A DNA stretch of 64,000 bases, taken from Undibacterium sp. CCC3.4 (lineage in GTDB: Bacteria > Pseudomonadota > Gammaproteobacteria > Burkholderiales > Burkholderiaceae_D). A program made the position numbers and the translations under genes. The stretch lies in NCBI RefSeq assembly GCF_034347425.1, contig NZ_CP133779.1, positions 992,001 to 1,056,000 of the forward strand, given 5' to 3'. Below, piece after piece: positions 12,265-29,301 of the stretch (within the stretch, counting starts at the first letter, position 1; each line of letters starts with the position of its first letter). The notes beneath the pieces were generated by a model, which ran no database searches, had not been told where the DNA came from, and saw only the letters and a program-made list of their open reading frames with translations.

Positions 12265-13077
12265 ATGAGTCAATTCAAACTTGCCGCCGGCAGCACCGTT
12301 AAATTCGGCGCTATTTCGACCGAACTCTATCCACTGTTACGCAACGGCATCCCCGGTAACCGACCCGGCCATGTGTTTGCCGACGCCGATCAAAGCGCCG
12401 TCGATGGCGTTGCCATCGGCGAGTTGATGGCGTACTTCTCAGCCTGCGCCGGTTTTTGTCGCAATACCGGTGAGCTGCATCAGCGCTATCCGGAGACGAT
12501 GGGCCAATTCGTAACTGCCTTGCAAGAGCATCGCGGCGACAAGCCACAATTTCCTGAACTCGAAGAAATTGCCCAGCAAGTCGGTTTGCCTATCGTGGTG
12601 GAGATGGTGCTTGAGGAAGATTGCGAATTGCAAGCCGATGCGCACTTTGTCAGTACCGAGCAAGCCGAAAGAAGTTGGAAATTATGGCGTAGCGGTACTT
12701 TGCAGCGCGCCGGCGGCATTCCACCCAGCTGGATCAAACAGTTCTACTTTCCACGCCTGCTCGATTACCGCGATGTCAGTGCGGCGCGCAATCCACGCAG
12801 CTTGGAACAAACGACTGACACCGCCTTAATGGTCGGCGGTTTGATGCAAAATTGGCATAAAGATACGCCAGGAGATTTGTTGGCAGCTTTCCGGAAACAA
12901 TATGGCCGCATCAATTTCTCTCAGCGCAGCAATATGGATGAGACGGCACTCGAACGTTTTTTCAACCTCAATGCGCTGATCGACCCGGCGACGCGCTTGC
13001 TCAATCAAATGACGATCTGGCAAGATGTTCACGCTTTGGCGAAGAAACAAGGTTTGAGCTTGGGCAGTGCGGATTAA
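12265..13077 (+). CDS. protein of unknown function, 270 residues
   Basis: I do not recognise a family. The protein starts MSQFKLAAGSTVKFGAISTE. It has no signal peptide or membrane segment and is probably cytosolic. It is mixed alpha/beta with several Trp and Tyr residues in the middle (IPPSWIKQFYFPRLLDYRDV) and ends with a helical stretch. Codon use resembles the neighbours, so it is likely a genuine gene. It follows the Gdt1-family gene on the same strand and could be co-transcribed. Confidence 0.7.
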   Translation: MSQFKLAAGSTVKFGAISTELYPLLRNGIPGNRPGHVFADADQSAVDGVAIGELMAYFSACAGFCRNTGELHQRYPETMGQFVTALQEHRGDKPQFPELEEIAQQVGLPIVVEMVLEEDCELQADAHFVSTEQAERSWKLWRSGTLQRAGGIPPSWIKQFYFPRLLDYRDVSAARNPRSLEQTTDTALMVGGLMQNWHKDTPGDLLAAFRKQYGRINFSQRSNMDETALERFFNLNALIDPATRLLNQMTIWQDVHALAKKQGLSLGSAD

Positions 13078-13237
13078 CTTACTTTCGCCCCTCATTATTT
13101 TCAGAAAATTCCTACATCGATAGCGCTTCACACCGCACGGCTCTTTATGGTATTTTTTATCTGTCTCTCGGTTTACTGCATGCGAGTTGGACAGAGAAAT
13201 GGCCGACGACAGCATTTCCCAGCTGTCTTCTTAGTAC

Positions 13238-13266
13238 TTGTTACTATCCTTTCGATATCCTATGTT
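13238..13266 (+). promoter_or_regulatory. candidate promoter of the small peptide gene
   Basis: TTGTTA and TATGTT, each 4/6 to consensus, are spaced by exactly 17 bp. They end 30 bp before the start of the double-glycine peptide gene. This is weak but well placed. Confidence 0.35.
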
Positions 13267-13296
13267 CACTCTGATTGATATATTGGAGAATTCAAT

Positions 13297-13455
13297 ATGA
13301 CTCAAACCTCAAATTTGTATCAGCCCGGCATACAAGAAATGACGACTCAGGAAATAGAGCAGGTATCGGGTGGGATAGTCCCAATGTTGGCGTTTGCTTA
13401 CGGATTCGGATCAGGTGCGGCAGCAGCGGCTGTCGGTCTTTGGCTGTCAAAATAA
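13297..13455 (+). CDS. double-glycine-leader (bacteriocin-type) precursor peptide
   Basis: This small gene encodes 52 residues behind a clear GGAG ribosome-binding site (TTGGAGAATTCAATATG). Residues 1-26 look like a classic leader ending QEMTTQEIEQVSGG, with hydrophobic residues at the usual spacing before Gly-Gly. Such leaders are cut by C39-peptidase ABC exporters. The predicted mature part is 26 residues, hydrophobic and Gly/Ala-rich (FAYGFGSGAAAAAVGLWLSK at its end), like small class II bacteriocins. No exporter or peptidase gene is in this window, so export would rely on genes elsewhere. It could be a bacteriocin, a microcin-like peptide or a signalling peptide. The leader call is strong; the function is open. 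Confidence 0.7.
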   Translation: MTQTSNLYQPGIQEMTTQEIEQVSGGIVPMLAFAYGFGSGAAAAAVGLWLSK

Positions 13456-13493
13456 ACCCTCGATCACATCTTATTTTTTAGCGGCTCCTCATC

Positions 13494-13598
13494 ATGAGTT
13501 CCAAACAAACACCCGATAAGCTTTTTTTCGCTTTTTCCAATGGGTTTCTATTTGGTGCCACGCTTGCGGCACTAGTGATCTACTGCTTCTTTCGATAA
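13494..13598 (+). CDS. possible one-helix membrane peptide downstream of the GG-leader peptide
   Basis: This is a 34-residue reading frame that begins MSSKQTPDKLFFAFSNGFLF. It holds one strongly hydrophobic segment (about residues 10-32) after a charged N-terminus and ends with Arg. It starts 38 bp after the peptide gene and is followed by a stable hairpin. Immunity proteins of small bacteriocins are often short membrane proteins encoded right after the precursor, so an immunity role is an attractive inference. No good ribosome-binding site is seen, which lowers confidence. Confidence 0.4.
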   Translation: MSSKQTPDKLFFAFSNGFLFGATLAALVIYCFFR

Positions 13599-13613
13599 GT
13601 AATTTTTTGAAAG

Positions 13614-13653
13614 GCGCTCGCTGATCCAATGCATCAATCGGATCAGTGAGCGC
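13614..13653 (+). terminator. 14-bp hairpin closing the peptide locus
   Basis: GCGCTCGCTGATCC and GGATCAGTGAGCGC pair over 14 positions (one G-T) around a 12-nt loop. There is no T-run after it, so it may be a weak or bidirectional terminator between the peptide locus and the convergent HDOD gene. Confidence 0.5.
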
Positions 13654-13737
13654 TCCCGAAACGGGGCATTCGATCCGATTTCGCAGGCTGCAGGATTAAG
13701 AATCAACATCAGGTTCTCGCCGAGAGTCTATGTTGAC

Positions 13738-15291
13738 TCAGCCACGCAGCATGGCCGCTTGCAACTGACTTTTCAGCGTTTTGATCAAGGCAGTTTCATC
13801 GGGCGAGACACCTTCGTCGGCGCAGACGGCGCGATCGGCATAGAACAAGCCCAGCGGTTTTTTTTGTATCACCAAGGGTAAGATGATGAAGCTGTGCACA
13901 TCGGGCATGCTTTCCTGGTACCAGGCCGGCAACAGGCTACGTATTTTTGCGGTCTGGGCATCGGCGATCATGACATCGACATTGTTTGTCATCGACAGGT
14001 GAAACAAATCGGCTTCATGCTTAACTGGAAAGTGAAAATGTTTTTGTCGCTGCGCGTACTGTTCACCGACCGCCACTCTGGCCACGTAACGGTTGCTGCT
14101 CAAATCGCGCAGACACACGGTGGCAAAGCGAAATCCCATGGCTGAGTAGAGCGTTTCAAGTACCAACAAGATCAAATCATTGAGTTTCAGTTCTTCCGAA
14201 GCCAGCATCTGCGTCACATCCTGCACGCCGGCGAGCAGTAACTCGCGCGCATTGCGTGGTTTGCCACTGGGATAGCGCTCCGATTCTTGTGACGGCAAGA
14301 CATCCTCGGTGCGCAGTAAAAACTCACTCGGTATGCCGTTTTGGCCACTGCTCTGCGTCGCTTCACCATGCAAGGGTGGCAGCGCCAAGTCCATGCTTTT
14401 GGCCATTTGCCGGGTCTCGCTGTCGACCTGCATGAGCATATTGGTCAATAGGCTGCGGTCGAGCTCCAGGCCTTTGCCATAACGCTGTAATATCGCCTCC
14501 ACTTGGCCATGCTCGTGCTGTTTGCCCGATAAAATCAGGGTCGCCAGGGTATCGGCAAAACTGGCGACTTGCTTGAGCCAATCTATCCTGTGCACCGGCT
14601 TTTTCAATTCAGCATGGGGCAGCGGGGCCAAGGACTGAATGATGGCTTCGGGAATTTTCCATTCTTGCAAAGCCATTTCACCGAAGCGCTCAAAACTGCA
14701 GCCCAGCAAGGTCGCGGCCGCCTCGGGCAAGCTGACTTGAGCACTGTCTGCGAGTGCGACAATGCGGCCGTACAGCGCATGATCGTAAGAGGCAATCAAG
14801 ACCCGTCCAATATTTTTGAATAAGGCCGCAACGGCCGCCTCTTCGGCATTTTGGAATTTCCCACGTTGCGCCATCTGACGGCCAATGATGCTGGCACACA
14901 AAGAATGGATCAATTCTTTACGCACATGGCCAGCTTGCGCCTTGTTTTTAAAACAATCGACCAACAACATCGCCATGGCGCTGGCTTTGACGGTATCGAA
15001 ACCGAGCAAGAAGATCGAGCGCGACACGGTCGTCACCGCGCTGCCAGCGCTGGCGCGGTATTGAACGGTATTCGAGAGACGCAGAATTTTTTGCGTAAGT
15101 GCCACATCCGACAACACGAAATGCGCCAAGCGTGCCACCGAATCTTCGCCCGACGAGGTGATCTGCAAGACTTGCGCAATGGCTACCCCGAGCGAGGGTA
15201 AATCCGTTTCGTCGTTGATTTTACGCAGCAAAGCCTCACGCGGCGATTCCGCTGCGTGAAAAATAGGAAACGACATGTCAGGATTGGCCAT
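13738..15291 (-). CDS. HDOD domain and GAF-like sensor protein
   Basis: This is a 517-residue signalling protein. The N-terminal half (about 20-240) is an HDOD domain: LPSLGVAIAQVLQITSSGED, then DVALTQKILRLSNTVQYR and SRSIFLLGFDTVKASAMAML. HDOD lacks the metal-binding His-Asp pairs of HD-GYP enzymes and acts as a signalling scaffold. The C-terminal part (about 355-510) resembles a GAF domain (LNDLILLVLETLYSAMGFRF; KPLGLFYADRA). It lies 43 bp downstream of the receiver-TPR gene on the same strand, so the two probably form a regulatory pair. The ligand and output are unknown. Confidence 0.75.
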   Translation of the reverse strand: MANPDMSFPIFHAAESPREALLRKINDETDLPSLGVAIAQVLQITSSGEDSVARLAHFVLSDVALTQKILRLSNTVQYRASAGSAVTTVSRSIFLLGFDTVKASAMAMLLVDCFKNKAQAGHVRKELIHSLCASIIGRQMAQRGKFQNAEEAAVAALFKNIGRVLIASYDHALYGRIVALADSAQVSLPEAAATLLGCSFERFGEMALQEWKIPEAIIQSLAPLPHAELKKPVHRIDWLKQVASFADTLATLILSGKQHEHGQVEAILQRYGKGLELDRSLLTNMLMQVDSETRQMAKSMDLALPPLHGEATQSSGQNGIPSEFLLRTEDVLPSQESERYPSGKPRNARELLLAGVQDVTQMLASEELKLNDLILLVLETLYSAMGFRFATVCLRDLSSNRYVARVAVGEQYAQRQKHFHFPVKHEADLFHLSMTNNVDVMIADAQTAKIRSLLPAWYQESMPDVHSFIILPLVIQKKPLGLFYADRAVCADEGVSPDETALIKTLKSQLQAAMLRG

Positions 15292-28470: not shown

Positions 28471-29301
28471 TCAGCTTGGCCGCTGATAAATCGATGGCTG
28501 TATCAAGCTCAGCGCATTGCTGATGCCATTGAGTGATTCTGAATGACTGATGATGAAGTAGCCGCCGGGACGCAGTTTTTCTACGATACGCTGCAACAAG
28601 CGCTGTTTCGTTTCGATATCGAAGTAAATCATTACATTACGCAAAAAAATGATGTCGAACTCGCCGATGTCGGGCAAGTTGCCCACCAAGTTCAGTTCGC
28701 GAAACGTGACTTTGGCCGTCACCAGCGGGTCGACCAAAAAAAAATCTTCGTATTCATCGCGCCCTTTGAGGCAGTATTTTTTCAACATCGACGGCGGAAT
28801 TTTTTCTGCTGCCAGCATAGGGTAAAGCGCGCGCCGGGCTTTATCAAGCATGCGCGTGGAGATATCAGAACCGAGCACTTCCCAGTTATCACCGGGAAAA
28901 AAAGCCGCCAGCGTCATGGCGATAGTATAGGCTTCTTCGCCGCTGGAGCTGGCAGCGCTCCAAACCCGCATCCGTTGCCGCGGATGTTGCGGGAAAATTA
29001 CTTTTTGCAAAAACTCGAAATGCTTATGCTCACGAAAAAAATAGGTTTCGTTGGTGGTCAGCAGATCGATCGCCATCACGGTTTCGTCTTCATAACCGGG
29101 ACGGCCGAGCAGTGAAAAATATTCGCGGTACGAGGACAAACCCTGCTTACGCAGGCGTTTATCCAGCCGCCCCATCACCAGCGCCTGCTTGCCCTCGTTG
29201 AGCGAAATACCGGTACGTTCATATAAAAAACGCGCAATCCAAACAAACTCATCGGGCGTGAGTGTGCGGACTACCGGCACGGCGTGGGCATTACTCGCCA
29301 T
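28471..29301 (-). CDS. cheR: chemotaxis protein methyltransferase CheR
   Basis: This 276-residue SAM-dependent methylase modifies receptor glutamates. The start is ATG 29299-29301 (MASNAHAVPVVRTLTPDEF), overlapping the cheW end by 11 bp; longer frames lie in cheW. The N-terminal helical domain is followed by the SAM fold: RVWSAASSSGEEAYTIAMTL, EVLGSDISTRMLDKARRA and FDIIFLRNVMIYFDIETKQR. All expected parts are present. Confidence 0.95.
   Translation of the reverse strand: MASNAHAVPVVRTLTPDEFVWIARFLYERTGISLNEGKQALVMGRLDKRLRKQGLSSYREYFSLLGRPGYEDETVMAIDLLTTNETYFFREHKHFEFLQKVIFPQHPRQRMRVWSAASSSGEEAYTIAMTLAAFFPGDNWEVLGSDISTRMLDKARRALYPMLAAEKIPPSMLKKYCLKGRDEYEDFFLVDPLVTAKVTFRELNLVGNLPDIGEFDIIFLRNVMIYFDIETKQRLLQRIVEKLRPGGYFIISHSESLNGISNALSLIQPSIYQRPS

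Follow-up and report, generated by a model that had tools for sequence, protein, structure and literature searches.

A double-glycine bacteriocin-type precursor in a variable slot of an Undibacterium genome, probably orphaned by a broken class A exporter

The window analysed here, a 64,000-nucleotide stretch of the Undibacterium sp. CCC3.4 genome, contains a small gene for a peptide with a double-glycine (GG) leader, lying in a low-GC slot between two conserved genes. The features of this locus, in window coordinates, are as follows.

12265..13077, + strand: left flanking gene, 270 aa, found in Undibacterium relatives; no Pfam or NCBIfam match
13078..13737, no strand: low-GC slot (45% GC; window 53%) flanked by two conserved, convergent genes
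13285..13288, + strand: Shine-Dalgarno sequence GGAG, read from the sequence, 8 nt upstream of the precursor ATG
13297..13455, + strand: GG-leader bacteriocin-type precursor, 52 aa, with a 26-aa leader and a 26-aa core from I27 (open reading frame, TIGR03949 match, Shine-Dalgarno sequence)
13339..13455, + strand: alternative 38-aa reading from M15, as in protein-database entry P0001, without a Shine-Dalgarno sequence and with a leader that would miss position -15
13375..13452, + strand: predicted mature core IVPMLAFAYGFGSGAAAAAVGLWLSK; Pro at +3, a single GxxxG
13494..13598, + strand: 34-aa hydrophobic single-helix open reading frame (KD19 1.87), a possible immunity peptide (unproven)
13613..13654, no strand: hairpin of 15 consecutive pairs including G-U (13613-13627 with 13640-13654), single copy
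13738..15291, - strand: right flanking gene, HDOD protein, 517 aa, matched in 37 of the 43 Undibacterium genomes with E <= 1e-60

The precursor is an ATG open reading frame on the + strand, and both the 52-codon gene with a good ribosome-binding site and the GG leader with a 26-residue core, as proposed by the first-pass annotation from the same DNA, were borne out. The leader, MTQTSNLYQPGIQEMTTQEIEQVSGG, ends in QEMTTQEIEQVSGG and carries I12, M15, I20 and V23 before G25-G26, which places hydrophobic residues at -15, -12, -7 and -4 (52-aa reading, by eye). This reading was preferred over the 38-aa version because the later start lacks a Shine-Dalgarno sequence and loses position -15. A six-frame scan of the window gave the strict leader motif a single time; 60 dinucleotide shuffles of the full window together gave it two times, and a looser scan added one match, in an unrelated 36-aa open reading frame at 29005. 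Two GG-leader peptides encoded together, the strict mark of class IIb, were thus not found in the window, which holds one strict leader motif. The precursor nevertheless scored 31.1 bits against the NCBIfam model TIGR03949, "class IIb bacteriocin, lactobin A/cerein 7B family" (cut-off 21.5), with a match reaching residue 45, well inside the core, and 29.8 bits (E 2.9e-6) in a six-frame search of the genome. This model exceeded its cut-off in 4 of 98 genomes and in none of 14 control genomes. Three Pfam matches all fell below their cut-offs, including Bacteriocin_IIc (18.5 bits, cut-off 27.1). The core GxxxG, GFGSG at residues 36-40, is weak evidence, as 21 of 40 related cores have one. Promoter-like sites at the locus were no more frequent than chance (1 versus a shuffle mean of 1.2). 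Upstream, a 43-aa open reading frame with a hydrophobic stretch and no Shine-Dalgarno sequence (13147-13278, + strand) stops 18 nt before the precursor start codon.

The GC content of the slot is reached by only 0.5% of 660-nt stretches. The nearest genes to the locus encode MgtC, GDT1, the 270-aa protein without a family and the HDOD protein, and the last two adjoin each other convergently in 27 of 29 relatives' loci. Our slot survey started from 30 loci returned for 38 HDOD matches and covered 27 after removal of the locus studied here and of two loci (L065, L085) in which the 270-aa gene was not found in the stretch. Between the two neighbours these relatives had a LysE-type gene (18 loci), a spacer of 16-86 nt (8) or a 107-aa WXXGXW protein (1), where Pfam confirmed one LysE gene and the WXXGXW example and the other 17 LysE genes were assigned by shared sequence. 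The precursor locus was absent from the slot in all 27. A separate set of 21 named loci with the 270-aa gene (18 from Undibacterium, including three MAGs, plus MAGs of Burkholderiales (2) and Oxalobacteraceae (1)) had the HDOD neighbour in 15 cases and the strict leader motif in none; weak, short fragments matching the 52-aa and the 34-aa query, at five of the 21 loci each, were taken for chance. HDOD matches at three loci (L120, L122, L130) were likewise set aside as chance, and the slot lengths there are void. In Undibacterium crateris, rugosum and curvum (L121, L122, L125), the 270-aa gene is accompanied by LysE sequence, with no HDOD gene within the stretch examined. A LysE remnant was sought in the slot of our genome by comparison with six relatives' slots, and none was convincing (best blastn E 0.39, tblastx E 0.24). 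The simplest reading, with one strain of the species compared, is a lineage-specific insertion of the precursor locus into the slot.

The 34-aa open reading frame begins 38 nt past the precursor stop codon. The 34-codon membrane peptide reported by the first-pass annotation therefore exists, with a strongly hydrophobic stretch, while its role in immunity is unproven; no Shine-Dalgarno-like sequence lies upstream of it, and its position and hydrophobicity make it a possible immunity protein at most. When the same 282 nt were shuffled 4000 times, 39 shuffles contained an ATG open reading frame that was 30 aa or longer and had a KD19 of 1.85 or more, a threshold chosen after the value of 1.87 was known. 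The expectation that the 52- and 34-residue products form a conserved pair failed: among the other 97 of 98 genomes we judged no match to be an orthologue of either (best E 0.0065 and 0.042, respectively), even though matches at E <= 1 occurred in 30 of 98 genomes for the longer and 11 of 98 for the shorter query, own genome counted. The best foreign match of the 34-aa product (L038) had no comparable ATG open reading frame and no leader motif alongside. The hairpin is also real, although it was described as 14 bp and forms 15 consecutive pairs when G-U is counted; its fold is stable (-33 kcal/mol, z -5.9, 71 nt folded). It was rejected as a repeat, its only genome match being itself, as a known RNA, the Rfam search giving no match, and as an intrinsic terminator, no T-run following it on either strand.

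Searches reaching close relatives only found no close relative of the whole peptide or its core in 84,980 species genomes, IMG/VR and plasmids, and as sole query of a protein database the peptide retrieved only P0001. The cluster of P0001 counts 2 sequences, on 3 contigs, which suggests that the peptide also occurs beyond this single record. Resemblance to relatives is confined to the leader and the start of the core. We built a profile, A1, from 11 GG peptides including this one; it scored 57.7 bits against the window leader, a value obtained with the window peptide in the alignment. In the protein database, the leader profile recovered 41 proteins, P0001 among them, and 10 of these are named "class IIb bacteriocin, lactobin A/cerein 7B family" by some source: NCBI (Chitinimonas, Janthinobacterium and a gammaproteobacterial MAG), UniRef (two from Undibacterium) or JGI (two). 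Among the 40 parsed cores, P0001 included, 22 have Pro at +3, as in the window core. The precursor thus adds one more member to a kind of which Undibacterium, Chitinimonas and Janthinobacterium already have annotated examples.

A1 matched 8 of 43 Undibacterium genomes, own genome counted. In the own genome it gave three matches at E <= 0.05, at 0.541, 1.005 and 4.21 Mb, where in the third case the leader alone matched, and the two further precursors also have open frames. We refer to these leaders (MQELN..E..VSGG) as class A. The window leader lies outside the strict class A pattern, reading IQEM where others read MQEL, and fits the class by its match to the A1 profile. At 9 of 11 other loci examined, the class A peptide gene has a partner open reading frame of 170-300 aa downstream; the window precursor has none. 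These downstream proteins do not represent a common partner, a candidate that we rejected: of five aligned, the first was 11-23% identical to the others, and one of seven scanned has a Pfam family (DUF3267). That one, a putative zincin peptidase, follows one of six class A GG peptides in genome G037 (L030 4006-6954), whose genes neighbour a single full-length class A exporter with its HlyD. The proteins after class A peptides at L029 6161-6919 and L033 5747-6556, in different Undibacterium genomes, have no Pfam match and share T.DPQW.SYR; these two appear related and form a possible partner family. At 4.21 Mb in the own genome (L028 4632-5703), another class A orphan GG peptide is followed by a 260-aa protein without a Pfam or NCBIfam match, whose motifs we take to be reminiscent of ClpP-like serine proteases.

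The genome contains three C39 peptidase matches, listed here with their genome positions.

1,064,374: first C39 match, the genome's sole class A ABC exporter, broken, 58.9 kb right of the peptide and 8.4 kb past the window end
3,741,425: second C39 match, a 717-aa C39-ABC exporter of class B, 1.9-2.7 Mb from the peptide
836,395: third C39 match, a 90-residue C39 peptidase fragment (L026 8345-8614)

None lies inside the window, in agreement with the first-pass annotation, which had seen no C39 exporter nearby and suggested a search of the genome for a C39-peptidase ABC transporter with an HlyD partner. That search yielded one apparently intact exporter with HlyD, consistent with the proposal of a bacteriocin-type precursor needing a distant exporter. 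Of the three observations named there as speaking against the proposal (no homologues with a conserved GG site, no C39 peptidase in the genome, no transcription), two do not hold, because the genome has C39 matches and other peptides do carry a related leader with its GG site. What the earlier annotation did not contain is that the window ends 8.4 kb short of an exporter of the matching class, a broken one. Compared with a 738-codon frame of genome G037, the own class A exporter aligns over residues 16-456 (83%) and then, in another frame, over residues 572-734 (80%), so that 115 residues (457-571) are missing, including Walker A (550). The HlyD of this exporter has lost its N-terminus, its match being limited to residues 84-451 of 451, and on the truncated side stands a transposase pair resembling an IS3 element in our reading.

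The class B exporter has a full-length ABC frame, Walker A and the ABC signature, and the Cys, His and Asp regions of its C39 domain were recognised by eye; as judged from its sequence, it looks intact and is the sole intact C39 exporter found in the genome. Also encoded in its cluster are a 454-aa HlyD and a GG substrate of the cluster's own, 108 aa long, whose leader differs. The cluster (L025, 3,734,000-3,752,000) is nearly identical to one in genome G014 (L154), with tree end branches of about 0.004 and substrates whose first 65 residues differ at one position, despite HDOD proteins that are 64% identical between the two genomes. In L025 it lies amid three copies of one transposase pair, and the whole looks like a recently transferred bacteriocin island. 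The fragment near 0.836 Mb is class B-like by eye, a remnant of another exporter.

Undibacterium has two main exporter/leader classes. In a tree of 34 exporters, clade A comprised 8 rows (support 95/99), including the own broken exporter, and clade B comprised 18 rows (support 99/100), including the own intact one. The tree covers 34 of 36 classified rows (G000c and G008b, with frames below 200 aa, were left out); these 36 of 67 C39 rows are 35 above 105 bits plus the own remnant at 0.836 Mb, leaving out two weaker G014 rows (L161) and the rest, below 90 bits. With leader patterns written after the leaders had been seen, class A leaders (MQELN-type) lay within the fetched stretch of four of the 8 clade A loci and of none of the 18 clade B loci. 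For class B leaders (MRLITNEEL-type), the counts were 0 of 8 in clade A and 16 of 18 in clade B. The own locus is among the four clade A loci without a class A leader in the fetched stretch. The MRLITNEEL pattern was also present at all three loci of a third small clade (G004a, G026a, G034a); at L134, L135 and L137, which belong to this third exporter clade, clusters of very short GG peptides have cores beginning with PEVD or similar. Across 43 genomes, class A peptides and clade A exporters occurred together in 6, the exporter only in 2, the peptide only in 2 and neither in 33 (Fisher p 1.2e-4), a rough test in that the genomes are related, A1 was partly built from them and the own broken exporter was counted. 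One of the two "exporter only" genomes, G002, has a class A leader beside the exporter that A1 missed. By eye, leaders of either class are hydrophobic at -15, -12, -7 and -4, and given these shared positions the class of an exporter may not decide export.

We consider it probable, at roughly 0.7, that the locus encodes a genuine class A GG precursor in a variable slot, orphaned because the class A exporter of this genome is broken. By analogy with its family, a class A C39 peptidase-ABC exporter would bind the precursor via its leader, the C39 peptidase would cut after GG26, and HlyD with an outer-membrane channel would release a 26-residue, putatively membrane-active peptide. With the presumed former partner broken here, the peptide would be either a relict or served by the class B pump.

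Both outcomes have evidence on their side. That the frame is open while the peptide is never exported and will decay is a real possibility, somewhat short of even odds: the matching-class exporter and its HlyD are both broken, promoter-like sites are at chance level and the usual 170-300 aa partner is lacking, whereas the precursor frame, Shine-Dalgarno sequence and leader are all intact, the two other class A precursors are also open, and the P0001 counts suggest that the peptide occurs elsewhere too. We are a little more doubtful of a living orphan bacteriocin still secreted in trans by the exporter at 3.74 Mb. This exporter and its HlyD appear intact, the window leader keeps I, M, I and V at the positions that steer pneumococcal ComAB/BlpAB substrates (PMC7018657, in part), and GG exporters in general are not particularly selective according to the introduction of that paper. 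Moreover, two genomes (G022, G026) have class A peptides and full-length clade B exporters, with no clade A exporter among the classified rows. Against such service stand the absence of MQELN-type leaders beside any clade B exporter, the class B cluster's own substrate with its different leader, and pneumococcus itself, where co-existing RtgAB and ComAB/BlpAB are inefficient on each other's substrates (PMC7018657, in part). It is unlikely, though worth stating, that all three scattered class A precursors (0.54, 1.005 and 4.21 Mb) were kept alive via a horizontally acquired class B exporter after the class A exporter broke; if true, class B service of class A precursors would be a natural exporter replacement across leader classes.

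Other readings concern the nature of the peptide. A two-peptide system, with the 34-aa product as second active peptide or immunity peptide, has in its favour one GxxxG in each product (in the 34-aa product by eye), the position of the second frame 38 nt past the precursor, its strong hydrophobicity and the few shuffles that match it. We regard it as decidedly unlikely, since the second frame has no leader, no Shine-Dalgarno sequence and no orthologue seen in 97 other genomes, and verified microcin immunity proteins measure 51-216 aa (PMC9746304, in part). The first-pass annotation had also raised a signalling role. GG precursors include pheromones, and the ComC and BlpC models gave weak, sub-threshold matches to the precursor; these stop with the leader, at residue 26, whereas the TIGR03949 match runs into the core, and no obvious receptor is found among MgtC, GDT1, the 270-aa protein and the HDOD protein, so that a pheromone in place of a bacteriocin appears improbable. 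As for a chance frame mimicking a GG precursor, the gene is small and its core has no close relative in the databases searched, but the rarity of the motif in shuffles, the TIGR03949 score above cut-off and the Shine-Dalgarno sequence make this very hard to credit.

On the preferred reading, that of an orphaned class A precursor, the locus is of an ordinary kind in an instructive state of decay. GG peptides without an exporter are a known prediction problem, for which sequence-based assignment of transporters to orphan GG peptides would help (PMC7018657, in part). Exporter clade and adjacent leader type go together in the Undibacterium genomes examined, and a broken class A pump together with an intact class B pump in one genome is a natural test of cross-class leader service. 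Our literature search on Undibacterium with bacteriocin or double-glycine returned no Undibacterium among the matches listed, from which we do not claim absence from print.

Compared with known systems, the precursor is like the proteobacterial members of TIGR03949 (Undibacterium, Chitinimonas, Janthinobacterium) in its MQELN..E..VSGG-type leader, short hydrophobic core and Pro at +3. It differs in a leader extended to 26 residues, as in a few relatives, in a core without close relatives, and in the lack of an adjoining exporter or larger partner gene. The Enterobacterales class II microcins of the microcin V type are similar as GG precursors for which export of the C39-ABC plus HlyD type is expected (PMC9746304, in part); unlike them, the window locus has no immunity protein in the verified range, the matching exporter is broken, and no C39-ABC exporter with HlyD, as expected within a class II microcin or bacteriocin cluster, lies in the window. 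The Neisseria nap island has its own C39 peptidase, a FapF homologue and three peptides, where the window locus has one peptide and none of these, and is alike in encoding short betaproteobacterial GG peptides in a low-GC stretch, nap being judged horizontally acquired (PMC11798529, in part). Finally, the pneumococcal rtg and blp loci are regulated clusters of a Gram-positive organism, unlike the lone precursor gene described here. They resemble it in that broken exporters are met at GG peptide loci there too, rtgA being disrupted in 59.1% of 318 genomes, which is a precedent for such loci, and in that ComAB and BlpAB draw on one substrate pool (PMC7018657, in part).
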